IMG/VR virus record: IMGVR_UViG_3300028864_000025
Span: 1-64,000 of that record
Direction: 5' to 3' (one strand)
DNA from: a virus
Length of the DNA stretch: 64,000 nt
Of this stretch, positions 29,702-62,246 are shown piece after piece. The position numbers and the translations under genes were made by a program. Within the stretch, counting starts at the first letter, position 1; each line of letters begins with the position of its first letter. Under the pieces are notes generated by a model. The model made no database searches, had not been told where the DNA came from, and worked only from the letters and a program-made list of their open reading frames with translations.

Positions 29702-31084
29702 TTATTTTTGCATTCTAAAATTCTTCTTTACTCCATTACCGATAGATATTTTATTGGTCTTAATTCTGCTCGAATCACCTAACATATGATTAATATCTTT
29801 ATCCGCATTGTCAGCAACATCACCAATATCAAAACCATTAGTACGTGTATCTGCTTGTTTTGATAATGCAGTATCTAGTTGTTTGGATATATCTCTTTTA
29901 ATTTTTCTTTTTGTGCCATCGCCACTAACCTGAATGACTATTCCGTTAGCCATGCTATTTTGCATATTAGACTTATTGCTACGGCTATCTTCTAATCTTC
30001 CGAAAGAATTTGTAATATCTCTTCCGGTTGCAGCCATCAATGCAGCAGGGAAAATTGTTCTACCTAATCCCTCGACACCTTTTTCTAAATTCATTTTAAC
30101 TTCACCCTCAACTTTAGGTGACATTTTGAATCCTGCTACTTTTTCAGGATCATCTTTTTTTTTTGGTTCTTTTTCAAATCCACGCCTTAAATTTCTACCA
30201 AGAGCAAAACTTAAAGCTGCTGGAGCTACATAATAAGGAATTGATTCTTTTCCTTTTTGAAGAAAGTGTTCATTCAATAATTTTTTTCCATATTCAGCAT
30301 CGAAGCTAGCTAACTTTTCTAAATCTAAAAGTTCATCAGAAGCTTTCTTTTTCCTCTTAAGTCCTTTATTGACTTGCGCAGCAACATCAACTACAACCTT
30401 TCCAGCCTTACTATTATTTTTCACTACTCTTAATGGATATTTCATCATTTTATCGCCTGCAATGCTAGCCATAACACCCGCAGGTTTAAGTACTTTTTTG
30501 TGACTTAATGCATTCAGTATTAATCCTGCACTAATACCTGTACCTATAGTATTGTATTCTAAATCTTTCTCAGGACTTCTCTCTTTATCGAATCGTTTCA
30601 TTGTTTTTGTGGTTGCAACACCTGCACCCATCATACCCAATAAAGCTGGTATAGTTACTTTTCCAGCCCTAGCACCTTCTTTTAATGTCTCTTTTACGTT
30701 TTTATTTTTCGCATTTTGAACCATATTTTTCAAATGCTCTGTATTTTTGGTATCTAAATCATCCACCTTACTCTTAACTTTGTTAATGCCTTTTTTTGCA
30801 TCGTAAGAAAAGTTATGAACTATTCTTCTTACATCATTCCCACTTGGAATCTTCATTCCAGCCTGTTTACAAAGAAGATCAAGTGTTTCAGATGCTGTTA
30901 CACCTGGACCTGATATCATAGCATTATTTAATCCATTCTTATGAGTTATATTTTTTGAAACTGTAGTACCCATCATAGCATCATATTTATTTTCAGAATT
31001 ATTATAGGTAGTCTTTGTTTTCTTAGCTCCATCAATAGCATCCATTGTGCCAAATATAGCATTTAATCCAGCTTGCTTATACAT
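29702..31084 (-). CDS. Probable packaged/internal virion protein with K-x-A tags
   Basis: 460 residues from ATG 31084 (MYKQAGLNA), which has a perfect AGGAGG. Upstream in-frame codons lie in a terminator hairpin and are rejected. Tag-like motifs recur: YKQAG, CKQAG, LEKLAS, PEKVAG and SKQAD. Two glycine/alanine-rich hydrophobic stretches (around IPALLGMMGAGVATT) separate basic regions. The repeated sites suggest a polyprotein cut by the prohead protease. The function of each piece is unknown. Confidence 0.6.
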   Translation of the reverse strand: MYKQAGLNAIFGTMDAIDGAKKTKTTYNNSENKYDAMMGTTVSKNITHKNGLNNAMISGPGVTASETLDLLCKQAGMKIPSGNDVRRIVHNFSYDAKKGINKVKSKVDDLDTKNTEHLKNMVQNAKNKNVKETLKEGARAGKVTIPALLGMMGAGVATTKTMKRFDKERSPEKDLEYNTIGTGISAGLILNALSHKKVLKPAGVMASIAGDKMMKYPLRVVKNNSKAGKVVVDVAAQVNKGLKRKKKASDELLDLEKLASFDAEYGKKLLNEHFLQKGKESIPYYVAPAALSFALGRNLRRGFEKEPKKKDDPEKVAGFKMSPKVEGEVKMNLEKGVEGLGRTIFPAALMAATGRDITNSFGRLEDSRSNKSNMQNSMANGIVIQVSGDGTKRKIKRDISKQLDTALSKQADTRTNGFDIGDVADNADKDINHMLGDSSRIKTNKISIGNGVKKNFRMQK

Positions 31085-31115
31085 ATTTATCCTCCTATTC
31101 TCTTCGTTATAATAC

Positions 31116-31150
31116 AAAAGGCATTCCCTTGTAATTTGGGAATGCCTTTT
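31116..31150 (-). terminator. Terminator after the gene at 31163
   Basis: AAAAGGCATTCCC pairs with GGGAATGCCTTTT around a nine-base loop on the minus strand, just after the stop of the acidic protein gene. Confidence 0.7.
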
Positions 31151-31162
31151 ACTCAAGGGATT

Positions 31163-31669
31163 TTATTCAAATTCATATCCATATGAAGCAAGAACTTCCA
31201 TAGCTGCATTAACTTCTATACAAGCATCTGCATAACATTCTTCAGCAGCAGCAATTTTTTCGCTACCATCATCATATATCCCTGCTATTTGATTTGTAAA
31301 TTGGATAGCTTCTTCACTTGATTCAGCAGCTTCTTTATCTAATCCATTTTCATCATAAAGACCAGCCTCTGCAAGAGTTTCGATACATGCTTGCTTTTGA
31401 ATTGTTCCATCTTCATACATTTCTTGGCAAAGTGCTATTTTATTCATAGCATTTTCATAAACAGCAGCAGCTTTTTCTTCTTCTGATGCTTTAGATCCAC
31501 CTTGTGCTTGTGCTTTAGCTTGAGCCTTTTTAGCCTCAATTATTTTTTTAATTTGTTCAGGTGTAAGTTTTTGACCTTCACCAGCAGTTTTTTCAACACC
31601 AAAATCCTCGACTATTTCATTTGCTAATTTTTCTACCATTTCACTATATTGATTATTAGTTAATTTCAT
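31163..31669 (-). CDS. Acidic helical protein, possible scaffold/core component
   Basis: 168 residues, rich in E and A, with recurring tags VEKLA, VEKTAG, MNKIA, IQKQA, LDKEA and SEKIA spaced about every 20-30 residues. The regular spacing of potential processing sites and the acidity suit a core or scaffolding protein degraded during head maturation. AGGAGG-like site upstream. There is no catalytic motif. Confidence 0.6.
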   Translation of the reverse strand: MKLTNNQYSEMVEKLANEIVEDFGVEKTAGEGQKLTPEQIKKIIEAKKAQAKAQAQGGSKASEEEKAAAVYENAMNKIALCQEMYEDGTIQKQACIETLAEAGLYDENGLDKEAAESSEEAIQFTNQIAGIYDDGSEKIAAAEECYADACIEVNAAMEVLASYGYEFE

Positions 31670-31714
31670 TTCATTTTCCTCCTTTAATCTAAAATCTAAA
31701 TTAATTATATTCTA

Positions 31715-32437
31715 TTAAAAATTATTATTCAAGTCAGGGAAGTAATTCTGTTGATCTATTGGGTTACTTCTATCTCTGACCTTTTTTATTCCAAAGCCAG
31801 CAGCACCTAATCCCGCAACTGTTCCGAGCCTTGCATTAGTAGTACTTCTAGTAGCTTTGTCAAAAACTTTTTGTTGATCGCCAATTTTACTATTTAAATC
31901 AGTAATGCCAATTTTATCTTCCCAATTTTTCATATTAGCTTTGTTTTTATCAAGCTTAGAATTTAAGTCTGATGTTATATTTTGTTTAGCTTGATTCTTT
32001 CTCATATTTAATGAGTCGAGTTGCTTTTGAGCAGAAGAGACTTCTTTAGTTGCCGCCCTACCTTCGCTATCAAATAAATTTTTTACAAAGCCTTGTTTTT
32101 GAGTTCTATCTAAAATAGTTTTGTTTTTGATTTTTAAGCCATCAACATTCTTCTCTGCATCACCTATTTTTTTATTCAAATTAGGCAAATATTTATCTGT
32201 ATCATTCAACTTGCTATTAATCTTATCCATGTTATTTTTTATTGAATTGTATTCTGGACTACTATTCTTAAAATTATTGCCAAGAGATACCATATCATCT
32301 AATTTATTTTTGGATTCTTTCTTAGCTATTCCAGTAACATTAGATAGATACTTATTTTTCTTAACTAGCTTTGTTAGATTCTCAATAGAGTCATCTAATA
32401 TTCCAGCAGTTTTTTCAGGTTCACTTGGCTTTATTGA
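31715..32437 (-). CDS. C-terminal part reached by -1 frameshift: coiled-coil domain
   Basis: This frame is open from a TGA just upstream of 32437, but no ATG, GTG or TTG occurs before the ATG at 32293, and that ATG has no ribosome-binding site. The upstream part carries PEKTAG and a helical stretch; the rest (about 190 residues) is a charged coiled coil with a C-terminal glycine-rich segment (LGTVAGLGAAGFGIKK). The end of the upstream gene supplies A-AAT-TTT-TTT-CAA, and slipping back one base at the T7 run enters exactly this frame. Confidence 0.6.
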   Translation of the reverse strand, partial: SIKPSEPEKTAGILDDSIENLTKLVKKNKYLSNVTGIAKKESKNKLDDMVSLGNNFKNSSPEYNSIKNNMDKINSKLNDTDKYLPNLNKKIGDAEKNVDGLKIKNKTILDRTQKQGFVKNLFDSEGRAATKEVSSAQKQLDSLNMRKNQAKQNITSDLNSKLDKNKANMKNWEDKIGITDLNSKIGDQQKVFDKATRSTTNARLGTVAGLGAAGFGIKKVRDRSNPIDQQNYFPDLNNNF

Positions 32438-33519: not shown

Positions 33520-33534
33520 TTCTTTCTTATTTAT

Positions 33535-35166
33535 TTACCATCCACCACGTTCACTTTCATCAACGCCGCTAAATGCTATTGCTCCACTTCCTGTTTCTCT
33601 GAATATCTCTTCGGCCAATTTAGCATATACGCATGAATGAAGAGCATCATCTGGTTGACCTTCAGGATGAGTATACATCAAATCTTCTGATCGACCAGTT
33701 TTTTCAGATTTTCTATATTCAGCTTGTTCAGATAAATGATGGTCATATAACCAAGGAAACTCTGATTTATCTGCTCCTGGCCATAATATATCTTCTTTCT
33801 GAATCGAAGTAACATACTCTTGCATTACTTGAGTCCTGTTAACAATCCATCTTGCTTGATCCAAATCATATTTCTTTCTTAACTTTTGATTAAAAGAATA
33901 GTAACAAGCAACAACCCTACTTACCCCAAATATATTTTGTAATTTTTTATATCTATCATAACCAAATCCCCAATCCACAACAGCCAAGCAGACGTTGTAG
34001 TTTTGCATCATATAGCAAATATCGTTTATTTGATAGTCGGGGTCTAATTCTTCTCCGACAGCATATCTTTTTATAAATAATAATTGGAATTTACCATTAC
34101 TGTTTCTTGCATATATACTCACTACAGTATATGATTTTTCTCCAGTTCCCCAATCCACTCCCATATACACAGGAACATTTGCAAATTCTCCTTCACATCG
34201 ATTAAACATTCTTTGATTGTTTGCACTGATTCTACCCAACATAACAGGGGTAAATGGCTTCGAAGCATTCTCATAACTTCTTCCAAGAACTTCGTTATGA
34301 AACTTATCTAACGAATAGTTATCTGCATACTTTGACCAAATATCCTCGGCAGTTATCCAAGGAACCATTAATTGAGATATTCTAAAACCTTTTAATTTTT
34401 TCTCTGGTGCAAGTGGCAACCAAAATCCATTAACAATGCTCATTTTTGGTAATTCCATCTCGCACTTTCTACATACAAATTGTTTCGGTCTTAGATTCTT
34501 AATTCCCATTATTTGGTACTTACCACAATGAGGGCATTTTACTACCCATTCATTTTGTGATGATTGGTCCCATTTTTGCTGAATTGTATTGGAGAATGTT
34601 TTAGGTGTTCCTGTATACCAAGTAACTCTCATTCTTGCTCCAGCTTCAAGTGCATGAGATTGACATTCCTTTATTACTGGTAATGCATCAATGTGGATAT
34701 CTTGTATTTCATCTCCCCATATTCCATTAACAGTAATACCTCTTATATTATCCCCAAGTCCATAGCAATGCTTTAAGTATACAGTAGAATTAGTCTTTTT
34801 TATTGTTTTCATGAATACAGCTTGTGAATCATGCTTATCTATATAGTCTTTTTTGATAACATCTTGATTGCTGTATTCATACAATTTCCCTAATCTTTCA
34901 TTTGAGAATTCCTTAACTTGTGATGTTAAGGGTGCGAAATATAAACCCTTAAAGTTTTCAAGAAGCAACGTATGGTTAGCCATATGAGTGGAATTAGTAG
35001 TAGATTTCTCAACTTGTCTTCCACTCATAATAAGTCCTTCTTCTATCTGACCATTATATATAGGATCTAGATAATGCCTGTCACTTAATCTAAATGGTTT
35101 CCCATCTAATCGATATATGGATTCGGCAAACGTAGAAGGCAGTACTTGTTTGATTTGTTTTTCCAT
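33535..35166 (-). CDS. terL: Terminase large subunit
   Basis: 543 residues. The ATPase and nuclease that package DNA. Walker A is SGRQVEKST (about residues 47-55, with E where G is usual), Walker B GIWGDEIQDI (~150). A zinc ribbon CPHCG...CRKC (~213-238) is inserted before the nuclease domain. Nuclease aspartates lie in MGVDWGTGEKS (~340), VVDWGFG (~397) and the late PDDALH. No E-K-x-A tag, as expected for a non-virion motor. Portal lies downstream in the same block. Confidence 0.88.
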   Translation of the reverse strand: MEKQIKQVLPSTFAESIYRLDGKPFRLSDRHYLDPIYNGQIEEGLIMSGRQVEKSTTNSTHMANHTLLLENFKGLYFAPLTSQVKEFSNERLGKLYEYSNQDVIKKDYIDKHDSQAVFMKTIKKTNSTVYLKHCYGLGDNIRGITVNGIWGDEIQDIHIDALPVIKECQSHALEAGARMRVTWYTGTPKTFSNTIQQKWDQSSQNEWVVKCPHCGKYQIMGIKNLRPKQFVCRKCEMELPKMSIVNGFWLPLAPEKKLKGFRISQLMVPWITAEDIWSKYADNYSLDKFHNEVLGRSYENASKPFTPVMLGRISANNQRMFNRCEGEFANVPVYMGVDWGTGEKSYTVVSIYARNSNGKFQLLFIKRYAVGEELDPDYQINDICYMMQNYNVCLAVVDWGFGYDRYKKLQNIFGVSRVVACYYSFNQKLRKKYDLDQARWIVNRTQVMQEYVTSIQKEDILWPGADKSEFPWLYDHHLSEQAEYRKSEKTGRSEDLMYTHPEGQPDDALHSCVYAKLAEEIFRETGSGAIAFSGVDESERGGW

Positions 35167-35175
35167 AGAATCACC

Positions 35176-36030
35176 CTACTCTTGCTGTTCTTGTTGTTTT
35201 TTTAATCTATGCTTCTTGAAATTTACTATATTTTCAGGAGTGGCAAAATAAGTAGGTAATGCTGCAACTTCTTGTGCGGCTGCCATAGGAGCTAATGCTG
35301 CTCCAACTTTAAGTGCGCGCTTTGCAACTCTAACTGAATTATCTCCCATTTTTTTACTTACCATTTTTTGGAATTCAGGATTACTTGCCGCATCTACTGT
35401 AGTTGCTTTATTTGATAGGTCTTTAAAATCTCTAGCAAATATCTTTCCACTGGCACCAACTCTTCCCAATGATTGTTCTAGGTTTTTACCTATTTCACCA
35501 CGAATAGCCTTACCTTTCTTTAATCCGTATAAACCTCCCCATAATGCTGCAACTGGTGCTGTGCTTGCGCCTATAGTTGCGGCGATACTTTTAGCATCAG
35601 GAGCTGTTCCAAATTCTTCTTTGTGTTTTTTATATAATTGATAAGTAGGAATTGTTGCTCCTCCTGCGATATCACCAATTGCCATGCCTGCCATGCCACC
35701 ATGAACCAAAGCTTTATTGAATGGCATCTTGCCTTTTTTCATAGCGAGAGCAGTACCAGCTATACCTCCAATTTTCATTGCAGTATCTTGTGCTTCGCCA
35801 TTAACCATCCCTGTTGCAATACTCTTGCCTACTGTCTTTACACCACTTTTTATCTTAGCTTTACCTTCATCATTACTTAAAGCGTATGCGCTACCTAATG
35901 CTCCTGCACCTACACCTGTTCCTATTCCAACTTTTTTAATTAAACCTTTATTTTTGTTGAACATTTTAATTGCTTTTTCTTTTATGCTTGCAGTCTTTTC
36001 TATAGATTCAATATAATATTCCTTATTCAT
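35176..36030 (-). CDS. Tagged glycine-rich protein (candidate injected/membrane-active)
   Basis: 284 residues from ATG 36030 with GGAGGTGATAATTGTT. The N-terminus MNKEYYIESIEKTASIKEK is one of the clearest Y-x3-IEK-x-A tags. After it come alternating basic and glycine/alanine-rich hydrophobic segments (VGIGTGVGAGALGSAYAL, IAATIGASTAPVAALWGG). The tag followed by membrane-active repeats recurs in four other genes here. No enzyme motif. Confidence 0.6.
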   Translation of the reverse strand: MNKEYYIESIEKTASIKEKAIKMFNKNKGLIKKVGIGTGVGAGALGSAYALSNDEGKAKIKSGVKTVGKSIATGMVNGEAQDTAMKIGGIAGTALAMKKGKMPFNKALVHGGMAGMAIGDIAGGATIPTYQLYKKHKEEFGTAPDAKSIAATIGASTAPVAALWGGLYGLKKGKAIRGEIGKNLEQSLGRVGASGKIFARDFKDLSNKATTVDAASNPEFQKMVSKKMGDNSVRVAKRALKVGAALAPMAAAQEVAALPTYFATPENIVNFKKHRLKKQQEQQE

Positions 36031-38117: not shown

Positions 38118-39731
38118 CTAACTACTAAACTTATTTTTTATCTTTTGAATTAAACTTTCTTTTGGTCTCATTTTACGGTTATTTTCATCAAGTAAATTAT
38201 ATAGTAGTTGATTTTGTTTAGCCTTATTATCAGCTATTTCATAAATAACTTCATCAGGAGTCCTATATGGAGATTTAAATAAACCTAACGTTTTTGGCAT
38301 AGTAGATAGATACCTATTTACTTCGACCTTTCGTTCGCCCTCCGCCCGTTTCGATTGACCGAACGCTCTTATTCCTCTGGCTTCCATTTGCTTCATTCTT
38401 TCTGGATTATAGTGACCATCTAAGGCACCTTCCCATGTAGTATCTCCAAGAGATAATCCTTCTGCTCCTGCCCCACTTATAAGCATTACTCTTTTCTTTC
38501 TAGCATTATAATCATTAACATCATTCTGTCTAGTTTCTTCTGTAACTCCTTTATTACCCTTACCTATAAACTTTCCATAACTTATTCCTCTATCCTTAAG
38601 TCCTGCTTCTAATACATCAGCTCCACCATTAATCATATTAGTTAGTAGTATTGCTTGACCATCAGGAGTTGTCTTTAAATGTTCTTGCATATCACTAAGC
38701 ATCTTATCTGTTTTTGGTGATAGCCTTGAACTTTCTTTTAGTGATATTCCAGGAACTACTGAACCAACACTATTAACTAATTTTCTTGCTTCTATCATAC
38801 GATTAAATGCTTTTGATATTTCATCATCTTTTAGGGTTTCTAATCTTTTTTGTTTTATTATTTCTCTTAGTTTAGGGTCATTCTTAATTAATTGCTTATA
38901 ATATTTAGCTTGCTCTTTAGATAATGGAACTTTTTCGGTATGAGTTTCTTTAAGTGGAATCTTGGCCATAGGTCTAACATCATCAACGCTAGCATAGTCA
39001 ACATATTTAGCTAAGTCACCTTGCAATCTTTTCTTATTGTTAAAACCAGTAACAGGAACTCTATTCTCCTTAAGTCCTTTATATTTAGGTGAAGTACTTC
39101 TCTTTAGATAATTCTTATCAAAATCTTTCGAAGTAGCACCTAGATGATGTTCGCCTTGTGAAGCTAAATCAACTAAATTGTACATATCAGGAATATGATT
39201 ATTTACTATAGAGCCTGTTAATCCTATAAAATTCTTGTATTTATCTCTAGTGCTTTTGAAACTATCTAATGTCGCAGTATCATTATTTCTAAGCTTATGC
39301 ATTTCATCAGCTATGACTGTGTCAGCACCAGTATCCCTTAAGATAGCTTCAGGATTTTTCCTGAACATTTCATATGAAATTATATTATAGTCAGAATCTT
39401 TATTGGGTGCATGACCTGTTCCTTTTGATATCTCACCCATATTACCCACAATATTATATTTACTGTCCGTAAATTTTTTTACACCATCATTTCCAAAATT
39501 ATGTCTTAAACTTGCTGGAGTAACTACGAGTGCTTTGTTCGCTAAGCCTTTTTCTTTCATCTTTTCGAACTTAGCTATCGATGATAATGTTTTACCACTT
39601 CCAACATCGTGCGCAACAATCATACTGTTTGATGGATTATCAACTACACGTTTTTGAAACGGATTAAATTCTATATCATCATGAAGTTTTGCTTGTTTCT
39701 CTATTTGCTCTTTATATTTATCTCTTTTCAT
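38118..39731 (-). CDS. SF2/SNF2-type helicase carrying the IEKQA tag
   Basis: 537 residues from ATG 39731 (AGGAGG seven bases away). The N-terminus is MKRDKYKEQIEKQAK, then FNPFQKRVVDNP, motif I GSGKT (44-48), VVTPASLRHNF, ADEMH (DExH variant, about 140), GLTGSIVNN, and the second RecA lobe with LISGAGAEGLSL and QMEARGIRAFGQ. The SF2 architecture is complete. The tag marks it as a candidate packaged protein, reminiscent of the helicase DarB carried in phage P1 heads. Confidence 0.8.
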   Translation of the reverse strand: MKRDKYKEQIEKQAKLHDDIEFNPFQKRVVDNPSNSMIVAHDVGSGKTLSSIAKFEKMKEKGLANKALVVTPASLRHNFGNDGVKKFTDSKYNIVGNMGEISKGTGHAPNKDSDYNIISYEMFRKNPEAILRDTGADTVIADEMHKLRNNDTATLDSFKSTRDKYKNFIGLTGSIVNNHIPDMYNLVDLASQGEHHLGATSKDFDKNYLKRSTSPKYKGLKENRVPVTGFNNKKRLQGDLAKYVDYASVDDVRPMAKIPLKETHTEKVPLSKEQAKYYKQLIKNDPKLREIIKQKRLETLKDDEISKAFNRMIEARKLVNSVGSVVPGISLKESSRLSPKTDKMLSDMQEHLKTTPDGQAILLTNMINGGADVLEAGLKDRGISYGKFIGKGNKGVTEETRQNDVNDYNARKKRVMLISGAGAEGLSLGDTTWEGALDGHYNPERMKQMEARGIRAFGQSKRAEGERKVEVNRYLSTMPKTLGLFKSPYRTPDEVIYEIADNKAKQNQLLYNLLDENNRKMRPKESLIQKIKNKFSS

Positions 39732-40557
39732 CACTATGCCTCCTAAACTTACTTAATCCATAAGCTCCAAGTCCAATACCAGCTGTCCCGATTCCAATTC
39801 CAAGTGCAAGCTTTTTATTTATTCTTGATTTAGGTATATTTCTTATTTTATCTTTATATTTCTCTTTGTTTTTATAGCAATGATCAATTATTATTTTGTC
39901 ATTATCTCTAGCTAGATAAGCTTGAAACGGTTTTTTCTGAACATAATCCATTCTTGATATTTCTAAGTCCTTTTTAAATTGATTACTCATATCCTTATTG
40001 ACAGATATTTTTTTGCCATAATTTTTCAAACCATCATTTTTAGGATCTAATAGGCTTCTTGATAATTTCAATTTTTTAGGGAAAGATTTATTCTCGTAAT
40101 ATGGAGAGAATGCTCCCTCATTCATCATTTGAGCATCAAAACCATGAGTTCCCTTTACTATAGCATTTCTCTTCGAAACAGCATTATAGAGTTCTTTATC
40201 TCCCTTGCTTAATTTTTTTACTCCTGAAAACTTATCAAATACATTTAACATTGCTTTCTCGGATTTACTCATGTTTGAGTTCTTGATATCAAAATCAGCA
40301 AGTGATTTTGGTGATACTATATTTGTCTTACCACCCTTAGAATTTATTTGCTGAAATTCTTTATCATCCACAATATCATTCATATCCCATTTTTCTATTA
40401 AATTTTTATTCCCTAGTTCCACACCCTTTGCAATTTCGGAATTACTCTTTCCTACAGTTTTAATTAATTTATTTCGATTTTTATTTGATAACTCATGATA
40501 TTTCTCTTTCCATTTTGTTGCAGCTTGCTTTTCTATTTGCTCTTTATATCGATTCAA
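39718..40557 (-). CDS. Tagged protein of unknown function
   Basis: 279 residues from TTG 40557 behind GAGGAGTGAG. N-terminus NRYKEQIEKQAATKWKEK. The middle is lysine-rich with GTHGFDAQMMNEGAFSPYY (about residues 135-155), and the C-terminus has one membrane-type segment (LALGIGIGTAGIGLGAYGL) with a basic end. It overlaps the helicase by 14 bases. No catalytic family was recognised; a small enzyme domain around HGFD is possible. Confidence 0.6.
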   Translation of the reverse strand: MNRYKEQIEKQAATKWKEKYHELSNKNRNKLIKTVGKSNSEIAKGVELGNKNLIEKWDMNDIVDDKEFQQINSKGGKTNIVSPKSLADFDIKNSNMSKSEKAMLNVFDKFSGVKKLSKGDKELYNAVSKRNAIVKGTHGFDAQMMNEGAFSPYYENKSFPKKLKLSRSLLDPKNDGLKNYGKKISVNKDMSNQFKKDLEISRMDYVQKKPFQAYLARDNDKIIIDHCYKNKEKYKDKIRNIPKSRINKKLALGIGIGTAGIGLGAYGLSKFRRHSDEKR

Positions 40558-41236: not shown

Positions 41237-42019
41237 TTAATAGTTTAATGAATATCTTGCCTCATTTCTTATTCTATCTAAGTTTGGAGATACCTTATTT
41301 TGTGCGTGATTAAAGGCACCATTTTGATCCATCGCTACTCCAGTTAATCTTCCGAAACCTGCTCCAAGTCCTGCACCTAATCCTCCAGAAAGAACAACTT
41401 TCCCTAGTCTATTAGTTGTTCCTCCTGCCAATCCTAATCCTAATCCTGCTAATGCTCCAACTCCAGTTCCAATCTTAAGACCTGTCTTTTTTGCAGTTAA
41501 ACTATCATATTTATTTTGATATTCTTTAGAGCTGTAGACATTACTTATTGATGAATCTAACTCTTTATATTTATTTAAAGTATCTTCACTAACCCTTTTA
41601 TTAGTCTTATGAGCAACTAATACTTTCATAATATCTTCATTCATACCATTAACTAAAGCTGATTGTATATCATTTCTGATATGAGGTTTCAGATCATCTT
41701 GAAGAGAATTTGGTAGTCTCCTATACCAAATAGAATTAGTTACATCACTCAAATGTTTATCGGTCTTTTCGCGTATAGATAAGGCTTCATTATTAGTCTT
41801 TTGGTGTTTTGCTTCGTTGCTTCTCGTCGGAGTGCTCGTCGCATATCTCGTCGCACTCCTTGTATGTTGATTAATATCGTTCTTATATTGTTCTTTAGTC
41901 TTTTTGAACTGACCACTTCTAAATCCACTATCTGCTGATTGATTGGAATTACCTCCAAAATCTCCGCTTCTGTATTCGCCAGTTACTGCCTCTTTTTCAA
42001 TTTGTTCTTTGTAATTCAT
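41237..42019 (-). CDS. Tagged glycine-rich protein
   Basis: 260 residues from ATG 42019 (GAGGAAGGTG upstream). MNYKEQIEKEAVTGEYRSG opens the chain, a basic Ser/Thr/Arg-rich region follows, and the last third is very glycine-rich and hydrophobic (AGLGLGLAGG, GGLGAGLGAGFG). Similar in layout to the genes at 35176 and 43625. It may insert into a membrane. Unknown function. Confidence 0.6.
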   Translation of the reverse strand: MNYKEQIEKEAVTGEYRSGDFGGNSNQSADSGFRSGQFKKTKEQYKNDINQHTRSATRYATSTPTRSNEAKHQKTNNEALSIREKTDKHLSDVTNSIWYRRLPNSLQDDLKPHIRNDIQSALVNGMNEDIMKVLVAHKTNKRVSEDTLNKYKELDSSISNVYSSKEYQNKYDSLTAKKTGLKIGTGVGALAGLGLGLAGGTTNRLGKVVLSGGLGAGLGAGFGRLTGVAMDQNGAFNHAQNKVSPNLDRIRNEARYSLNY

Positions 42020-42020: not shown

Positions 42021-43604
42021 TTACAATACACCTTCCTCTTCGCCCATATTCGTTTTAAAAATTTTTGAACTTAAGTCATTAAACTTATCTCTTGCAGGCT
42101 GTAACTTATTTGAAATTGCCCTAATCTTATTCTTGGTATCACTTGCTATCATTGATGCCCTTGGCTTTGCAACCTGTAGTCCGTTTCTTATTCCTTCTTT
42201 AGCAATATCCAAATCTCTTTGTGACATCGCTAAAAGTGGAAAGGGTGCATCAAAAAGAGTATCGAAAGCATTGTCCTTAACTATTTTAGTTACTTTTTGA
42301 ACAACTGGAGATTCTCTTAATTTTTTTCCATACATTTTTCCTCCAGCAAATATTGCTTGTTTTTCTATTTCCTCTATATAGTATTCCTTAGATTTCTTCT
42401 CAAAGTTAGAAGATTTTTTTCCTTTAAGCTGATTCATAATATGGCTTTCTGATACTTTAAATAGTTTTAATCCATATTCCTTTGCCATATCCTTAAAACT
42501 ATTAAATTGTTCTTCAAAGACTATGTGTATATCTTTATTTGTAGTTATGCTCTCAATATCATTCTTATATCTTAGAGGCTTAAAATCACCTTTTATTTTG
42601 TACATCGAACAAGGTTTGTTTATATCTACATCACTAGTATATTTTAATACTGTGCCTGTGTAGTTGCTTTCCGTAGGAACTTTACTATCCTTAGTCAGTA
42701 CATTGAATCTAGCAGTACCATCATTCCACTTTAATCCAAAAGCAGCAGAGAAAGAAGGATATTTAGACGCGAATAAAACATCTCCTTTGTTGTTTCCTGA
42801 TGTATCTTCTGATAATCTAAATTTCTTTATTCCTTGAACTGGTGAAGCATGATAATAAACATTTTCTCCAGCTTCTTTTTCAATACTATTATCATTATCC
42901 TCGCTAGCTGTGCTTTTGATGAAAGAAAACTTTCCTATAGCACCTTTTAATGTTGGTGCAGTAGCACATGCTCTATGAGTGTAGCAGAAGTATATAGTTT
43001 CTCCACTAGGCATAAATGCTTTCGATATACCTAATTCTCCATTATTATACCAAACCGCCTTACCCTCTCTTACTATTTTCTTTTCATCAGAAGTTAAAGG
43101 TATTTGATATTTTTTAAGATCTTTCATTTTGTATCTTTTCTCGGCTACTTTATCAAATCCACTAAGTATCTCATTTGCTTTTTGTTCAATAAGTTCTTCT
43201 ATGCTTTTTTCTGCTCCACCTGTGTATTTACCATAATATACAGGAACTTCTTTGATTCCTTTAAATTCGCAAGCTTCCTTTCTATGATGTCCATCAAGCA
43301 AAATAGAATGACCTTTTGTTTGAGGGGTAATTCCTTGGAATTTATCTACCACCATGAAAGGATTAATATTTCCAGGCTTTATAGTTTCTGCAATATTAAA
43401 CACCTTTTCTTTATTTACAGGTTTATCGATACCTTGTAGTTTATCTATCTTCATCATTTTCTTTTGCCATTTATAATTCTTTACAAGTTTTATTGCACCA
43501 TCTTCATTAGGTGTCTTGTATTCATGGGAAGTAGCAATCATATAAGCTACTTCTCTATCAATGGAACCTTTCAGAAATGCCCTATCTATCTTCTCTAATT
43601 TCAT
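42021..43604 (-). CDS. Multidomain protein: ParB/Srx-like domain, ADP-ribosyltransferase-like domain, internal processing tags
   Basis: 527 residues, AGGAGAAACGCA before the ATG. Residues ~85-125 hold the ParB/sulfiredoxin-like site (SILLDGHHRKEACEFKGI). FDKVAEKRY (~151) and SIEKEAG (~240-246) are tag-like sites. Right after the second comes YYHASPVQGIKKF...VLFASKYPSFSAAFG (~250-290), which has the shape of an ADP-ribosyltransferase-like fold (H-x-S then a strand and a helix). EYYIEEIEKQA (~410) opens a basic C-terminal piece. Tags fall between domains, as expected if they are cut sites. The ART call is by eye. Confidence 0.55.
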   Translation of the reverse strand: MKLEKIDRAFLKGSIDREVAYMIATSHEYKTPNEDGAIKLVKNYKWQKKMMKIDKLQGIDKPVNKEKVFNIAETIKPGNINPFMVVDKFQGITPQTKGHSILLDGHHRKEACEFKGIKEVPVYYGKYTGGAEKSIEELIEQKANEILSGFDKVAEKRYKMKDLKKYQIPLTSDEKKIVREGKAVWYNNGELGISKAFMPSGETIYFCYTHRACATAPTLKGAIGKFSFIKSTASEDNDNSIEKEAGENVYYHASPVQGIKKFRLSEDTSGNNKGDVLFASKYPSFSAAFGLKWNDGTARFNVLTKDSKVPTESNYTGTVLKYTSDVDINKPCSMYKIKGDFKPLRYKNDIESITTNKDIHIVFEEQFNSFKDMAKEYGLKLFKVSESHIMNQLKGKKSSNFEKKSKEYYIEEIEKQAIFAGGKMYGKKLRESPVVQKVTKIVKDNAFDTLFDAPFPLLAMSQRDLDIAKEGIRNGLQVAKPRASMIASDTKNKIRAISNKLQPARDKFNDLSSKIFKTNMGEEEGVL

Positions 43605-43624: not shown

Positions 43625-44095
<471 letters not shown>

Positions 44096-44955: not shown

Positions 44956-44988
44956 ATAATAGCTGGGGTTCTGCCCCAGCTATTATTT
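44954..44988. terminator. Bidirectional terminator
   Basis: AAATAATAGCTGGGG/CCCCAGCTATTATTT around a short loop, between convergent genes. Confidence 0.85.
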
Positions 44989-45667
44989 AATAGAAACTAT
45001 TTATTTCATTTTTTCCTCTTTCAATATCATCATATAATCTACTTCTGTCATGATCAACATCATGAAGATCATCTCTTCTCTCTTGTGGCGCTTCTTTAGG
45101 CATTACACCACACATTGCTCCACATTGAGGGCATCTACCATCCTCACTATCAGGCTTTCCTGCATAGCCACATTGTTCACAATTAATATCACCCATATAC
45201 CCCGAAAGCTTTAGTAGTGCTTGTTTCTCTATTTTATTTTTATAGTATTCTTTTTTTTCATCTTCTTCTGTTACGGAATTTACCATTCTTCTTTTCTCAT
45301 CTTCATTTGGACTTTCTTGAACTTCCTTTTCCTCATCAGTCATCTTATTATCTTCGTCATGAGGAATTTCCATATCTGCTTTTTTGAATACCCCAAGAGC
45401 AGCAGAACCTAATTTCTTAGCGGCACTAACACCTGGACCTGCTGCTAATCCACCAAGAGCTAATCCACCCATAACTCCACCAGCTATATTTCCAGCCTTT
45501 TCATCCGGAGAAGCACCAGGATTAGCTTCATTAGCTGATACACCCTTCATTGAGCCGATTCCAGCCCCAAGCAATGCTCCGCCAGTTGTTCTACCTAGAA
45601 ATTTACCTACTTGAGCAAATCCAGCAGTTTTAAGTATTTCTTCACTTAAATTATTTATTTCATTCAT
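44987..45667 (-). CDS. Two-part tagged protein with C-terminal zinc ribbon
   Basis: 226 residues. EEILKTAGFAQ near the start and YYKNKIEKQALLKL near residue 145 are tags. The first part is glycine/alanine-rich (GALLGAGIGSMKG, GGVMGGLALGGLAAG). After an acidic linker the second part has CEQCGYAG...RCPQCGAMCG, a zinc ribbon. The second tag stands exactly at the boundary, consistent with cleavage into two products. Confidence 0.6.
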   Translation of the reverse strand: MNEINNLSEEILKTAGFAQVGKFLGRTTGGALLGAGIGSMKGVSANEANPGASPDEKAGNIAGGVMGGLALGGLAAGPGVSAAKKLGSAALGVFKKADMEIPHDEDNKMTDEEKEVQESPNEDEKRRMVNSVTEEDEKKEYYKNKIEKQALLKLSGYMGDINCEQCGYAGKPDSEDGRCPQCGAMCGVMPKEAPQERRDDLHDVDHDRSRLYDDIERGKNEINSFY

Positions 45668-47113: not shown

Positions 47114-47734
47114 ATGAAGATAACAAAAAATACAATGCAAGAAAGTTTAGATAAAGCCCTAGAAATATTTTCGAAAAACGTAATAAAACCTAACTGTTCA
47201 GTCATAATAAAATATATCAATGACGAAGATTTCATAGCAAGTGCAAAGGATACACAATTCAATTCTATGCTAATTAATTCTAAATTCTACGAAGATTTCG
47301 ATAAGGAATATAAAAGTTTTGCAGCAGTCTATCCGATGGACAAAACTCAAATAATTAAACTTATGGGATTACCTTATCGAATATCAATATCTTTAGACAG
47401 AGCCAAAAGAGTGCTTTCTAAAGAAAGCACTAAAAATACAAAGGAATATCTTTTACATGTTTTCTTCCATGAATTAACACATTTATTTGAGGACGAAATA
47501 AAAGATAAATACAGTGAATGCTATGATATAATTTCAAACAAATATAATAGTGAAAATCATATAAATGAAATGCTTGCAGAAACATTTTCTTATAAATATA
47601 CTGACCATGTACGTTGCGATGAAATGGAGAAGAGATTGAATTACAAATTATATAAAAGGCTTAATAATCAGAGAATAAATATAGTGCATCATGATGATGA
47701 GAAAGAAATGACGGAATACATGAAATATATTTAA
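47114..47734 (+). CDS. Second putative zinc metalloprotease
   Basis: 206 residues with HELTH at 119-123 and NEMLAETFS (~152-160), which could provide the third ligand. It differs from SprT and from the preceding gene. GAAAGGAATGAG before the ATG. It overlaps the stop of the minus-strand gene at 47731 by four bases. Substrate unknown. Confidence 0.65.
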   Translation: MKITKNTMQESLDKALEIFSKNVIKPNCSVIIKYINDEDFIASAKDTQFNSMLINSKFYEDFDKEYKSFAAVYPMDKTQIIKLMGLPYRISISLDRAKRVLSKESTKNTKEYLLHVFFHELTHLFEDEIKDKYSECYDIISNKYNSENHINEMLAETFSYKYTDHVRCDEMEKRLNYKLYKRLNNQRINIVHHDDEKEMTEYMKYI

Positions 47735-48042
47735 TTAATTTCAATGTTCCATCTAGCCTCAAAAGGCTTCTTTGTTTCTTTGATACCTTTTATATTTTTT
47801 GTTTTGAATCTCCTAATTTCATTTTTTGTAGTATCGAACCCCCAAAAATCATCACCTGAAAGTTTGTAGGGTTCAACCAATCTTTTTGTTTTAGTACCTT
47901 TTTTGTCTTTGTAAGATATCTCTAAGAGATTTTTATTGAGACCACAATTTTTAATTTTGTTGATTCTTTTATCATTCATAGTTAATTCTTGTGCCTGTTT
48001 TTCAATATAATCCTTATATTTATTTCTAAGATGAATATTCAT
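47731..48042 (-). CDS. Tagged WYL-like small protein
   Basis: 103 residues from ATG 48042 (AAGGAGTTGATATTA upstream). The tag HLRNKYKDYIEKQAQEL opens the chain. The rest resembles a WYL-type ligand-binding module: LLEISYKDKKGTKTKRLVEP then DDFWGFDTTKNEIRRFKTKNI in pieces. WYL domains sense ligands or nucleic acids in bacterial defence and regulation. The tag suggests it is packaged. Its ribosome-binding site is buried in a 14-bp hairpin. Confidence 0.55.
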   Translation of the reverse strand: MNIHLRNKYKDYIEKQAQELTMNDKRINKIKNCGLNKNLLEISYKDKKGTKTKRLVEPYKLSGDDFWGFDTTKNEIRRFKTKNIKGIKETKKPFEARWNIEIN

Positions 48043-49941: not shown

Positions 49942-50245
49942 AGATTTTAAGTCCTTAAATAATCTTGATTTAAATAGTGAAAGGCACGAAGTAATAGAAG
50001 TATTGAATTTATTGGAAAAAGATATATCAAAAACAAAGGAAATGATAAATAATCAAGAAGGAGATTTTAAGCAATATTTAGAGTGCATGGCTTGCGGACA
50101 CAAAAGCGTTCCAATTAAGAGTGATTGTTTTGTTCTTCAGATGAGTAAATGTGAAGATTGCAATATAGAATTTTCTGTTAGGATGTTTAAAAGTGGTAGA
50201 TTTAGAATGAGGAATATGGGGGTAAAAAATGAGCGAAGTTCGTGA
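49904..50245 (+). CDS. Zinc-knuckle protein
   Basis: 113 residues from TTG 49904, overlapping the previous gene by 38 bases. C-terminal CMACGHKS and CEDCNIEF form a zinc ribbon. The N-terminal half is a helical stretch. The start has a weak ribosome-binding site (AAAGGAATG), so the first residues are uncertain. Confidence 0.45.
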   Translation: MRKVQESITKIFKDFKSLNNLDLNSERHEVIEVLNLLEKDISKTKEMINNQEGDFKQYLECMACGHKSVPIKSDCFVLQMSKCEDCNIEFSVRMFKSGRFRMRNMGVKNERSS

Positions 50246-50444
50246 ATCATTAGAAAAGAAAAAGAATAAAAAGGTTCTATTGGATAGAGAAATCATAAAT
50301 ACAATGCTTAGAGCTATCACTAAAGATGAAGATGTAGTAAGGAGATGGAACAACAAATGCAGATCAATTAAACAAAAACAGAAATCTATAAGGCGAATTG
50401 ATAGACATATTCGTAGATTGGAAAAACTAGCAAAACCATTTTAG
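50229..50444 (+). CDS. Small basic protein
   Basis: 71 residues, ATGGGGGTAAAA upstream. Arg/Lys-rich helix at the C-terminus (QKSIRRIDRHIRRLEKLAK). Ends with TAG at 50442, in frame with the next ORF. Confidence 0.5.
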   Translation: MSEVRESLEKKKNKKVLLDREIINTMLRAITKDEDVVRRWNNKCRSIKQKQKSIRRIDRHIRRLEKLAKPF

Positions 50445-53321: not shown

Positions 53322-53344
53322 GTGGGCGAAAGCCCACAAATTAT
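53322..53344. terminator. Bidirectional terminator
   Basis: GTGGGC/GCCCAC with GAAA loop, followed by AAATTATTTT. Confidence 0.65.
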
Positions 53345-54276
53345 TTTCCTGCAATTTTTTCAAAACATTCTTCGATGATTTCATTTGCTTCTTTGTGATG
53401 AGGATTTTTTGTCTTTTTGAAAGAATCAGCTAACAGTTTTCCCCCTATAGCTATTGGGATTGCTCCTAATCCTACATGTCCAAGACCTTTAGCAAAATGT
53501 TTAGGGTTTTCCTTTATGAACCGACCAATACCTTTTAATGTTTGTTTCTCATAACCCTTTCCACCCTTTACATATTTTGATGCTATATCTCCTTGAATAA
53601 CATCTGTTTGTGGACCTAACTGATTAAATCCACTTCTAGCTACATTCATAGGAATTTTTTGACCCATATACATGATATTGCCATCCACTTTCTTTTGAAG
53701 AATTTTTTGAAATTCTTTAGCATTCTTAGCTCCCATTAATTCTGGATTGTCTACTTTATGCATACCCTTATAATCCTTAACAGGAATATTAACTTTTAGT
53801 GTTTCTTGAGTTTTCTTTGCACCAAAAAGATCTGGCATAAGTCTTCCGTTATCAATTTGATCTCTTCTCATTCCTATTCCATCAGCTACACCTTTCTTTT
53901 TCGCCATATAAGTTTTACCTGCTTGTTCTTCTTTTCCTATACCTGCTGCCATAGAAGTTAGGTTATCAGGGTCCATAGCTTTATTTGATAATATTCCATG
54001 TTCTTTGATTCCACTAACATTATCTTTCTTCGTATTGTGATATCTTCTAACTACACCATCTAGCATTCCTTCTTGCCTTGCCTTATTTATAACGTTTGCT
54101 CCGACTGCTCCACCAACAATTCCTGCTCCACCCTTAGCAACTTTTTTATTATGTTCTTTTTCAGCATAGTCGAGATCTTTATTTGAAATTTCATCTACAG
54201 AAACTCCCCACTTTTTCGCAAGTTGTTTTTTTGTATATTCTACTGCTGTTTTTTCTATTTGATTTCTATAATTCAT
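53341..54276 (-). CDS. Tagged protein with ADP-ribosyltransferase-like region
   Basis: 311 residues from ATG 54276 (AGGAGGAGAATAT upstream). MNYRNQIEKTAVEY opens the chain and NEIIEECFEKIAGK closes it. In between, VRRYHNTKKDNVSGIKEHGI and a following KTYMAKKKG resemble the start of an ART fold (Y-H-x-T, then GI-x-x and a strand). A glycine-rich segment and a hydrophobic C-terminal region follow. The enzyme call is by eye; tags at both ends make it a member of the packaged set. Confidence 0.5.
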   Translation of the reverse strand: MNYRNQIEKTAVEYTKKQLAKKWGVSVDEISNKDLDYAEKEHNKKVAKGGAGIVGGAVGANVINKARQEGMLDGVVRRYHNTKKDNVSGIKEHGILSNKAMDPDNLTSMAAGIGKEEQAGKTYMAKKKGVADGIGMRRDQIDNGRLMPDLFGAKKTQETLKVNIPVKDYKGMHKVDNPELMGAKNAKEFQKILQKKVDGNIMYMGQKIPMNVARSGFNQLGPQTDVIQGDIASKYVKGGKGYEKQTLKGIGRFIKENPKHFAKGLGHVGLGAIPIAIGGKLLADSFKKTKNPHHKEANEIIEECFEKIAGK

Positions 54277-57295: not shown

Positions 57296-57301
57296 AAATT
57301 C

Positions 57302-57340
57302 AATAAGATAAGCTATAATTATAGCTTATCTTATTTTTAT
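57302..57340 (+). terminator. Rho-independent terminator
   Basis: Perfect 17-bp palindrome (AATAAGATAAGCTATAA with its complement) followed by T-run. Confidence 0.8.
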
Positions 57341-57371
57341 ATACAAAATAAAAGAATGGGGGATCATCAAA

Positions 57372-57953: not shown

Positions 57954-58332
57954 TAACGAAGAATTTGTAAAAGAGTTAGATATAATTGTTAAAGATGTTT
58001 GGCAACAAATAATAGATAGGCTTGCTATTGATAAGGAGATAGCAATAATAACAGATGTGAATTTCTTCATCGAAGATAAAAGAGTTAAAGAGCTCCTAAC
58101 TAAATATGAATTAAAAGCAGATAAATTTGATATAAAAATGGAAACTTCAAAAAATAAATATATTGGAAACAAGTGTAAATATTATTACAATGAAATGGAA
58201 ATGAAACCAGTATGTCATTATATTCAACCTAAAGATCGTAGAGAAGTAACATTATTGCAAATGCTAAGAGAATGTGAGAAGCAAGACACTCATACTCCTG
58301 ACATCAAGCACTTGGAAGAACCTGAAAAATAA
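57943..58332 (+). CDS. Unknown small protein
   Basis: 129 residues starting inside the previous gene after GATGAGGTG. Helical with acidic and basic patches, two C-terminal cysteines (KCKYYY, VCHYIQP). Coupled by overlap with its neighbour. Function unknown. Confidence 0.55.
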   Translation: MKNNNEEFVKELDIIVKDVWQQIIDRLAIDKEIAIITDVNFFIEDKRVKELLTKYELKADKFDIKMETSKNKYIGNKCKYYYNEMEMKPVCHYIQPKDRREVTLLQMLRECEKQDTHTPDIKHLEEPEK

Positions 58333-58350
58333 AACATATTGGGGGAGGAA

Positions 58351-59796: not shown

Positions 59797-60343
59797 AAAT
59801 AAATATGAGAGTGATTATGAAATAAAAAGACTTGGATTAAATAGAATGCTAGAGGGAATATTTACAAAAGATTCAAAGACAGAAGACCTTGAAAAGTTCT
59901 TAGATGATAATGTTTTTGAATATTACAATATAAGAGATAAATCAGTATCATCCGGTAAATTCCTATATAAGCTTACTAGAGAAGAAATTCTAGAAGCAAG
60001 TAAGAATTACACCAAGTTTGCAGTTTATGAAAGCCTAGCGTTGGCAGACGATAGATTAGTGCTGCAAGGAGATATAGAAATAGATAAGGATTTTGTTATG
60101 AGGGCATCGCTTAGTGATATAAAGAATATGTCCAATAGACTGGCGATGCAAGAGCCAGTCTATCATATTTATAATCATGATTTGAGAGAGCGAAAAGAAC
60201 CATCGATATATGGTCTATCAAAAGTTATAGATTATATAGCCAGTAAAGAATTAATTGGAATGGTGGTAGAGTTTTCCCTATTTGAGATACCAGTTGGAAT
60301 AAATAGGGAACATTTGATAATATGGGAATTAAGAAATTATTAG
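59789..60343 (+). CDS. Unknown protein coupled to the sigma-like gene
   Basis: 184 residues; ATG overlaps the end of the sigma-like gene by eight bases behind AGAAAGG. Helical N-terminal half, then IEIDKDFVMRASLSDIKNM and a C-terminal domain with FEIPVGINREHLIIWE. No recognisable motif. Position suggests an accessory to the sigma-like protein. Confidence 0.6.
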   Translation: MIRNKYESDYEIKRLGLNRMLEGIFTKDSKTEDLEKFLDDNVFEYYNIRDKSVSSGKFLYKLTREEILEASKNYTKFAVYESLALADDRLVLQGDIEIDKDFVMRASLSDIKNMSNRLAMQEPVYHIYNHDLRERKEPSIYGLSKVIDYIASKELIGMVVEFSLFEIPVGINREHLIIWELRNY

Positions 60344-60353
60344 GAGGAAACAG

Positions 60354-60677
60354 ATGAAAGAAATTATAAGAATAAAAAGAAGTACGTTCGAAACACGAAG
60401 TAAATTCTTAACTTTGGTTGCTATAGATTCGAACACATTTATATATAAGAAAAGATTTAAATACAAAATTAAAACCTTTTTAAAGGTAATAGGTATGATA
60501 TTATGGATACCTATTAATATACCTTACTCATTAGTAGTGGCAATACTGTTTACTTTGGCTGAATGGTGGGTAGATATGATTGATAGTTTCAGAGGTAATG
60601 ACATTAAAGAATGGTGTCAAGATATCAAGTCAGAATTTAAGTCTATTCAAGATTGTATTTTTGAGATTGAAGATTAG
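60354..60677 (+). CDS. Small membrane protein
   Basis: 107 residues after TTAGGAGGAAACAG. Two adjacent hydrophobic stretches (VIGMILWIPINIPYSLVVAI and LFTLAEWWV) separated by short charged segments, then a charged C-terminus. Unknown role. Confidence 0.6.
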   Translation: MKEIIRIKRSTFETRSKFLTLVAIDSNTFIYKKRFKYKIKTFLKVIGMILWIPINIPYSLVVAILFTLAEWWVDMIDSFRGNDIKEWCQDIKSEFKSIQDCIFEIED

Positions 60678-60686
60678 GAGGAATAA

Positions 60687-60860
60687 ATGGATTGCAATGT
60701 TAGCTGTAAATGTAAAGAATGTGGAAAATTAATGGAATTTGATACCACAAATGAGGCGTTCAATCTACGGATATTGATGAAAGCTTTAGAAGGAATAGGG
60801 CATAAATGTATGCAATGTGCATTGAGAGATTTAAGCATAGAGGCGCAGGAATCAATATAA
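60687..60860 (+). CDS. Small zinc-knuckle protein
   Basis: 57 residues after TTAGGAGGAATAA. Six cysteines: CNVSCKCKECG at the N-terminus and HKCMQC near the end. Typical of compact zinc-binding accessory proteins. Confidence 0.6.
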   Translation: MDCNVSCKCKECGKLMEFDTTNEAFNLRILMKALEGIGHKCMQCALRDLSIEAQESI

Positions 60861-60888
60861 TAAAAGAAATCTAGATGGGGGTAATGGT

Positions 60889-61074
60889 ATGAGAATAATT
60901 GTAGGTATGATAACAGGGTTAGGAGTAACAGCAGGAATAGTATCAGAGAGAGAAGATGTAAAATTAATAAATAAAGTACAGAAGATAGAGCCAATAAGTG
61001 AATCTCAAAGAACAGCATATGATGATAAGTTTCAGAGATTATTAGATAGAAGCAAGAGAAATGTAGGGTTGTAA
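60889..61074 (+). CDS. Small protein with hydrophobic N-terminus
   Basis: 61 residues after GATGGGGGTAATGGT. RIIVGMITGLGVTAGIVS may be a membrane anchor or a weak signal; the rest is charged. Bidirectional terminator follows. Confidence 0.55.
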   Translation: MRIIVGMITGLGVTAGIVSEREDVKLINKVQKIEPISESQRTAYDDKFQRLLDRSKRNVGL

Positions 61075-61105
61075 AAATAGAGGTGGCTTAGCCACCTCTA
61101 TTTTT
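61073..61105. terminator. Bidirectional terminator
   Basis: AAAAATAGAGGTGGC/GCCACCTCTATTTTT around three bases. Confidence 0.85.
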
Positions 61106-62246
61106 ACCTTTTCTTTTTTTGTTCATCAAGCATTGATTTTGTTTTCATTCCTGTATTATATTGCATATGAGAAGATGATGCATTCAATGCTCCCCCAGCT
61201 ACTCCTGTTCCTAGAGTAGTTAATGCGGTAAGCGCTCTTTCTCCACCTTCTGATACTTTCTTTCCACCGTAATAGTTTTTAGAAAGGTCCTCACCTACAT
61301 CTTGCAATTTAGAATTTATATCTCTAACTCTTTTACCTGAATCAGCCATACCTTTCATGTGATTTAATGCTTCTTCCTGTTCTTTCTTTGATAACCTCTT
61401 GCCCTTTTTAGCTGCATTAAATAGTTGTTCGGCTTTATCTACGCCACCCATTGTTTTATTAGATTCCCTCATTAAATCGCCACCAAGTCCTTGGAATTCG
61501 GATAGCTTACCTAGTGATTTAGTGTATTTCATTACTCTTTTTGGATTAAAGGAATCCATACTTCCTTTTGCCATATTCATAAGATTATGTGATAACCCTG
61601 GCATTTTCTTTCTTACTGCAAGTGCTGCTGCCCCTGTCATTGCTGCTGGCATTAATGCGCCTGTTGCTGCTCCACTAATAAATCCACTGGCGTCTCCTAC
61701 AGCTTTATGAATCTTATGATGCTTTTCATTTTGCAGAGAGTTTCTAAATGTACTAACTCCTGTTGGGTCAAACCCCGATACAAAATCTTTCATATATGAT
61801 GATTCTGCTAATTTTTCACAAGCTATCTTTTCTATTTGTTCTTTATAATTCATATTTGCCTCCTTATTCATCCAATTATTAAATTTACCTATTTGCTCAA
61901 TCAAGTGTTTCGGATTACCATCAAAGCATACTGCATTATCATCGACATACATTATTGCTGGTGGTTTTTCTTTTGCCACCCCATCTACTTTAATATCATA
62001 TTTTTCTAGCCATTTTTTAATAGCATCTATCCCACCTTTTTGGAAACATCTGGTAGATACAACAACGATTTTATAATCTTGCCTTAATTTATCTATAGCT
62101 TCTTTTATTCCCTCTACTGGTTTATCAGGTATATTGGTTGTTCCTTTCCAACCACTAATATAGGAGTGAATCACTCCGTCAAAATCAAACACTATGGTTT
62201 TTTTAGCGCTTGCTATTTTTTCTATTAATTTCTTATAATTCAACAT
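61104..62246 (-). CDS. Two tagged proteins fused: HAD phosphatase and glycine-rich protein
   Basis: 380 residues from ATG 62246 (GGGAG six bases upstream). MLNYKKLIEKIASAKK is the first tag, then a HAD domain: FDFDGVI (nucleophile Asp21), VVVSTR (~58-62) and MYVDDNAV (~100). A second tag MNYKEQIEKIACEKLA begins at residue 132. Its ATG (61853) has its own AAGGAGG at correct spacing, so the C-terminal 249-residue part (glycine/alanine-rich membrane segment, GTGVAGGAL end) may also be made alone. Confidence 0.75.
   Translation of the reverse strand: MLNYKKLIEKIASAKKTIVFDFDGVIHSYISGWKGTTNIPDKPVEGIKEAIDKLRQDYKIVVVSTRCFQKGGIDAIKKWLEKYDIKVDGVAKEKPPAIMYVDDNAVCFDGNPKHLIEQIGKFNNWMNKEANMNYKEQIEKIACEKLAESSYMKDFVSGFDPTGVSTFRNSLQNEKHHKIHKAVGDASGFISGAATGALMPAAMTGAAALAVRKKMPGLSHNLMNMAKGSMDSFNPKRVMKYTKSLGKLSEFQGLGGDLMRESNKTMGGVDKAEQLFNAAKKGKRLSKKEQEEALNHMKGMADSGKRVRDINSKLQDVGEDLSKNYYGGKKVSEGGERALTALTTLGTGVAGGALNASSSHMQYNTGMKTKSMLDEQKKKR

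Follow-up and report, generated by a model that had tools for sequence, protein, structure and literature searches.

A recurrent N-terminal leader ending in a predicted head protease site on unrelated proteins of an uncultured relative of giant Bacillus phage G

The stretch of viral DNA analyzed here (IMG/VR record IMGVR_UViG_3300028864_000025, positions 1 to 64,000; “the window”) is part of a phage genome of ~160.5 kb in which a short peptide tag, Y-x3-[IV]-E-K-x-A, recurs on unrelated proteins encoded on the minus strand. Judged from sequence, the T4 gp21-like head protease of the phage very probably cuts at the core of this tag, [hydrophobic]-x-K-x-A, and the longer tag probably acts as a modular address label that directs proteins into the virus head. 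The initial annotation had read the motif as a candidate capsid-packaging and processing signal, and that reading is supported by the coincidence of K-x-A with conserved sites in the protease and with the maturation site of the phage G capsid protein (PMC5646251).

Among the 204 gene calls of the genome, with expectations taken from shuffled proteins, the full tag occurs 12 times in 11 proteins, all within the minus-strand cluster of head and cargo genes (0.1 expected), and it is absent from both the tail genes and the plus-strand proteins. The shorter EK.A is found 49 times in the head/cargo cluster versus 7.1 ± 2.5 expected but is near expectation in the tail genes (4 versus 3.1) and on the plus strand (11 versus 10.0), so the difference between strands anticipated by the initial annotation is borne out. 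In the same genome-wide shuffle test, the control motifs EK.G, EK.S, DK.A, KE.A, and ER.A were not enriched. The earlier statement that E-K-x-A is missing elsewhere holds for the terminase and the large RNA polymerase but not for the plus strand, where open reading frames 15646-17733 and 50229-50444 contain one copy each, which is the background level. At the DNA level, three IMG/VR records that represent this phage share the same 11 matches, all on one strand, compared with 0 to 1 for the reversed pattern. The twelve copies show 135 synonymous pairwise codon differences, indicating that selection acts on the peptide and not on the DNA.

All of the genes listed in the initial annotation carry the motif in a scan of open reading frames, the positions given there as gene ends being the start codons of minus-strand genes. 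The acidic scaffold-like protein encoded by 31163-31669 had been credited with only a short E-K-x-A copy; the motif is indeed present, but the copy is a full tag, the twelfth (YSEMVEKLA, 31622 to 31648, read as QYSEMVEKLA at the N terminus; start at 31669, Shine-Dalgarno AGGAGG). Besides this copy there are eight N-terminal cargo copies and three internal ones, likewise on the minus strand. The N-terminal copies are YIESIEKTA (35989 to 36015) in gene 35176-36030; YKEQIEKQA in the SNF2 helicase gene 38118-39731 (39690 to 39716) and again in gene 39718-40557, which has a TTG start (40522 to 40548); YKEQIEKEA (41987 to 42013) in gene 41237-42019; YKQEIEKQA (44054 to 44080) in the Gly-rich gene 43625-44095; YKDYIEKQA (47992 to 48018) in the WYL-domain gene 47731-48042; YRNQIEKTA (54244 to 54270) in the ART-like gene 53341-54276; and YKKLIEKIA (62211 to 62237) in the HAD gene 61104-62249. 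Good Shine-Dalgarno sequences precede most of the N-terminal copies.

Internal copies are found in three multidomain genes. YIEEIEKQA (42354 to 42380), with no start codon found nearby, lies in gene 42021-43604, which appears by eye to combine ParB-like and ART-like parts and has no Pfam match. YKNKIEKQA (45218 to 45244), also with no start codon near it, separates the Gly-zipper and Cys-rich parts of gene 44987-45667. YKEQIEKIA (61821 to 61847) stands between the HAD and Gly-zipper parts of gene 61104-62249 and has its own ATG (61853) with a perfect Shine-Dalgarno sequence; this gene is apparently two tagged proteins fused in frame, each of which may possibly also be made separately. The tagged proteins are otherwise mostly single-domain, and protein-family searches gave no family assignment for most of the cargo, while the PHROG matches of the tagged SNF2 helicase are to families of large helicase/methyltransferase proteins.

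The position of the Tyr refines this picture into two classes of site: a short [hyd]EKxA form (hyd, hydrophobic residue), predicted to serve processing, and the longer Y-x3-I-E-K-x-A form, the probable cargo address. Tyr is present at position −4 in 9 of 13 N-terminal [hyd]EKxA sites. Among the 25 internal sites it is found in just 3, all of which fall inside the multidomain cargo genes described above. The cargo leaders of this phage are 11 to 17 residues long.

Evidence that the core is a cleavage site comes from the protease itself. The head maturation protease (312 to 2669, minus strand; 785 residues) has a predicted mature core of residues 30 to 215 (2025 to 2582, minus strand), bounded by KTA↓S (residues 27 to 29) and KVA↓F (residues 213 to 215), where the arrow marks the predicted cut. 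In an alignment of 31 diverse protease sequences, K27 and A29 are invariant within an otherwise variable N terminus, and K213 and A215, just past the protease domain, are at least 90% conserved. K-x-A was found upstream of the domain in all 69 intact homologues, drawn from 80 loci. The AlphaFold model is confident over approximately residues 30 to 210 and disordered at 1 to 28 and 211 to 262, so that each site lies where the folded core ends, an arrangement expected of a protease that excises itself. With the model of residues 30 to 210, the best Foldseek match in the PDB was T4 gp21 (5jbl; probability 1.00, E value 2e-3), followed by the protease of human cytomegalovirus (HCMV), a herpesvirus; the best match in BFVD was phage G gp19, along with many annotated prohead proteases. 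The modeled fold thus puts the enzyme in the T4 gp21/herpesvirus assemblin class, and H87 and S138 (within SMGC), both invariant in the 31 sequences, are a candidate His/Ser catalytic pair. The initial annotation had noted shorter E-K-x-A copies in the portal and the protease, and these are present as EKVA↓S at residues 28 to 31 of the portal and as further EKxA sites in the long C-terminal extension of the protease.

A sequenced capsid protein N terminus falls at the same position. Phage G gp27 has 282 residues, of which 255 remain in the mature protein according to N-terminal sequencing (PMC5646251, Table 1). Mature gp27 therefore begins after Ala27, and the mass computed on that basis is 28.17 kDa, compared with the reported 28.2. 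Ala27 occupies the column aligned with A34 of the capsid protein studied here (EKFA↓S), which is invariant in the capsid protein alignment, with K-x-A present in four of the five sequences. PDB entry 6wkk gives no view of the cut, as the whole 280-residue chain sequence is present. KxA is enriched in the head genes of phage G, although the repeated Y-x3-IEKxA leader was not found in that phage.

The core is also enriched around related proteases. Across 51 nonredundant protease loci, [ILVMF].K.A[AS] occurs 465 times versus 60 expected and [ILVMF]EK.A occurs 290 times versus 26, and an unbiased residue-pair search over these loci ranks K-x-A at the top after CxxC. The pooled site profile is [LMFI]-E-K-[TEV]-A↓[SAE]. 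The enrichment is repeated in five protease loci from cellular genome bins, and several of the IMG/VR loci hold cargo with short KxA leaders. The Y-x3 form is sparse, with a match in 9 of 31 records of related or candidate phages, and in this respect the tag is lineage specific, unlike the KxA core. YKxQIEKxA was considered as a wider tag across IMG/VR and was rejected, since outside this phage its matches are single and mostly internal; MNYKxxIEKxA had one other match, which resembles the start of a RelE-type toxin and was judged to be due to chance. All six contigs checked for these two patterns (five and one, respectively) lack the protease.

A different tag appears to occupy the same position in a sister clade. 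The string MNK-Y-[LF]-E-K-x-A, required to lie at a start codon, was matched 87 times in IMG/VR; the matches fall in 39 contigs, of which 20 contain two to six, and the tagged proteins sort into 24 unrelated families when they are compared without the tag. Among the cargo are SNF2 helicases, Gly-zipper proteins, small basic peptides, and proteins that look ART-like by eye (YHGT). Of the 39 contigs, 27 encode the same protease, as do 19 of the 20 with multiple tags; the 12 tag contigs that lack it are all <48 kb (9 are <40 kb), so most of them may be fragments. Matches to MNKYFEK (a 609-residue protein and two singletons) come from contigs in which the protease is missing; chance probably accounts for them, but they remain counted within the 39 contigs and 24 families. 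A short leader is therefore common to otherwise unrelated proteins, as in the class of capsid-targeting sequences. Relatives of the ART-like gene 53341-54276 in contigs L178 and L126 start with MNKYLEKIA and MSNKYLEKVA, and SNF2 helicases 36 to 40% identical to that of the window, in other phages with this protease, have different N-terminal [hyd]xKxA leaders, e.g., MSLGDYLIKSAAA. Tiny Lys-rich tagged proteins (50 to 58 residues) recur in the MNKYLEK contigs, e.g., L213, L230, and L238, and may be DNA-binding internal proteins.

Virion proteomics of a relative allowed packaged and undetected proteins to be compared. The virion table of Salmonella phage Arash (PMC10585845), which is permissive at 116 proteins, was joined with the annotated Arash genes, and proteins with at least five unique peptides were taken as virion proteins. 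[ILVMF]EK.A is present in 11 of these 68 proteins (19 sites versus 2.1 expected) and in none of 137 undetected proteins (1.7 expected; Fisher test, 3e-6), whereas altered control motifs show no such contrast between the two sets. The enrichment in virion over nonvirion proteins that the initial annotation had named as a test of its proposal was thus seen in this relative.

These observations are consistent with a two-part leader. Its end, [ILMF]-E-K-x-A, would be recognized by the T4 gp21-like protease and cut after the Ala, while the upstream part (M-N-Y-K-x-x-I here and M-N-K-Y-L in the sister clade) would serve unrelated proteins as a capsid-targeting sequence, delivering them to the prohead core, probably through contact with the scaffold. 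After assembly, the protease would trim itself, the capsid protein, the portal, the scaffold, and the cargo leaders, and the cargo (SNF2 helicase, ART-like, HAD, WYL, Gly-zipper, and Zn-ribbon proteins) would remain in the head with the DNA, to be ejected with it into the host and to act early in infection. Where a tag lies inside a gene, as in the three multidomain cargo genes, the protease would be able to split the product. That the tagged proteins of this phage are packaged, cleaved, and ejected, and that there is contact with the scaffold, is what we infer from these data, and we consider the account as a whole to be well founded and likely to be correct.

Several observations weigh against it. 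The residue following the Ala in the cargo tags is varied (N, S, K, A, V, I, G, L, Q, V, S, C), and cleavage of the cargo may therefore be inefficient or may not occur. The Arash proteins gp221, gp223, and gp242 carry predicted sites yet have 100% peptide coverage, which indicates that some copies of the site stay uncut. The Arash SNF2 relative gp217 is abundant in virions (1,148 spectra) and has no leader, so the tag is not the sole route of packaging. In addition, the capsid cut site of phage G has no Lys, and the actinophage relatives of the protease show no clear enrichment, although gene calling there is poor.

The packaging of untagged gp217 is also what would be expected if the motif were solely a processing site or propeptide and the cargo entered the head by other means, such as by binding DNA, the portal, or the RNA polymerase. 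Sites without the Tyr are, moreover, the commoner kind (26 of 38) and include those of the portal, protease, scaffold, and capsid protein. However, a bare cut site would not require the upstream residues to be conserved, and they are conserved on unrelated cargo, both in the distribution of the Tyr between N-terminal and internal sites and in the constancy of NKYLEK over many families; we therefore regard this explanation as unlikely. Conserved short N-terminal peptides often work as addresses within the cell, and many of the cargoes have Gly-zipper membrane segments, so the tag could instead direct proteins to a membrane or compartment of the infected cell or act as a degron. The presence of the same core in the capsid protein, portal, scaffold, and protease, its match to a sequenced capsid maturation site, and its enrichment in virion proteins leave little room for such a role.

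Explanations without a peptide function fare worse. Most copies directly follow a Shine-Dalgarno sequence and start codon, as would be the case for a translation initiation element, a mobile DNA element, or recent duplications, but the synonymous differences among the copies, the internal copies that lack start codons, and the recurrence of the peptide in other phages with different DNA make this very improbable. Similarly, the proteins of the cluster are rich in Lys and Glu, and Lys/Glu/Ala-rich amphipathic helices in an A+T-rich genome might be expected to produce such strings by chance; that idea is contradicted by the shuffles, the control motifs, the contrasts between strands and modules, and the replication in 51 loci, and we give it practically no credence.

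The two-part leader would share its principle, a capsid-targeting sequence (CTS) and a prohead protease, with known systems. The CTS of T4 internal proteins is an analogous short N-terminal cargo leader that is removed by the T4 prohead protease, gp21, which appears to have the same fold as the protease studied here; the cleavage site of gp21 ends in Glu, while the predicted cut motif here is [hyd]-E-K-x-A↓, and up to eleven unrelated proteins carry one and the same leader. The motif of the SPN3US protease is A-x-E. In SPN3US and phiKZ, a single prohead protease processes numerous head proteins as well as ejected ones at a short motif where Ser is favored at P1', and the propeptides of SPN3US are mostly long (111 to 254 residues) (PMC10052503), in contrast to the K-x-A sites and 11- to 17-residue cargo leaders seen here. 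Phage P1 DarB also has an N-terminal signal (>9 and <30 residues), which packages this large anti-restriction protein as well as a heterologous reporter, and cleavage of the P1 capsid protein occurs between E120 and S121; the signal was demonstrated for one protein, with no repeated tag (PMC9024508). The PHROG matches of the tagged SNF2 helicase to large helicase/methyltransferase proteins are a further point of similarity.

The domain types of the cargo are similar to those of the polyvalent proteins, for which Iyer et al. 2017 (PMC5512222) describe ParB-like, ART-like, helicase, and similar domains in late-gene contexts, in proteins thought to be injected, some of them multidomain. Processing is ascribed there to built-in metallopeptidase domains, whereas here mostly separate proteins share a common tag and a head protease site. 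Iyer et al. also note a divergent head peptidase in one jumbo-phage group (PMC7824862), and no cut motif or tag is mentioned in the passages located in these papers. Phage G has the closest isolate homologues of the capsid protein and protease (gp27 and gp19) and differs in the lack of a detected repeated leader and of the Lys in its capsid site. Word searches of the open-access literature (subscription journals being outside their scope) did not find the tag strings or a reported cleavage specificity for this protease family. What is new relative to the known systems is the different cut motif and the reuse of one tag over many unrelated proteins.

The genomic setting is that of a large tailed phage. 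IMG/VR record 3300031722_000008 (G002) spans the whole window with an offset of 13 bases, and the overlap of its two ends falls within a repeat encoding acidic sequence (EKDKEEKDKEEKESADDS) in the scaffold-like gene, on the side of window positions 1 to 322, so the assembled genome is probably a circle that was opened inside this repeat. The head genes (terminase, portal, protease, scaffold-like protein, and major capsid protein) are on the minus strand. They include the terminase large subunit (33535 to 35166; no EKxA), the portal (25643 to 27514; its EKVA↓S is close to the N terminus), the 5' part of the acidic, repeat-rich scaffold-like protein (2 to 322; contains FEKKA↓S and LEKLA↓Q), and the major capsid protein (G002:157747-158778), which is outside the window, beyond the contig end. 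The protease gene is located between the portal and capsid genes on the same strand, and further genes separate it from the portal. The closest isolate is Bacillus phage G (27% identity for gp27 and 37% for the protease domain of gp19), followed by Salmonella phage Arash, in which gp222 is the counterpart of the protease, and then by Vibrio phages such as D69. The sole close relative seen is a 4.9-kb fragment (L186; IMG/VR 3300029822_000797) whose capsid protein is 67% identical across 273 residues and from which the capsid N terminus is absent.

A fused beta-beta' type RNA polymerase (18367 to 25353, minus strand; 2,328 residues in a single chain; no EKxA) is homologous to gp206 (beta) and gp216 (beta') of Arash, both of which are virion RNA polymerase subunits, gp206 being the most detected protein in Arash virions; it is probably a fused, packaged RNA polymerase. 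A 1,082-residue protein with eleven EKxA sites (G002:69569-72817, minus strand) is a candidate inner-core or scaffold protein that may be cut into many pieces. An NrdD-like anaerobic ribonucleotide reductase is encoded at 8043 to 10223 (plus strand), which suggests an anaerobic host.

Taken beyond this phage, the data lead us to favor, somewhat cautiously, the view that a large clade of tailed phages, most of them uncultured (hundreds of contigs; the isolates include phage G, Arash, and Vibrio phage D69), has one head protease specificity in common, [LMFI]-(E)-K-x-A↓, and that in each of its different lineages a private N-terminal tag ending in that site has evolved, to be reused on any protein that is packed and injected. 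A predicted cleavage specificity can in this way be assigned to the protease family. Proteins that are carried in the head and injected are normally known solely through virion proteomics of cultured phages. If the proposal is true, the injected arsenal of such phages would be listable from genome sequence alone, and a sequence rule would name the injected proteins of widespread, mostly uncultured phages, including small possible antidefense factors.

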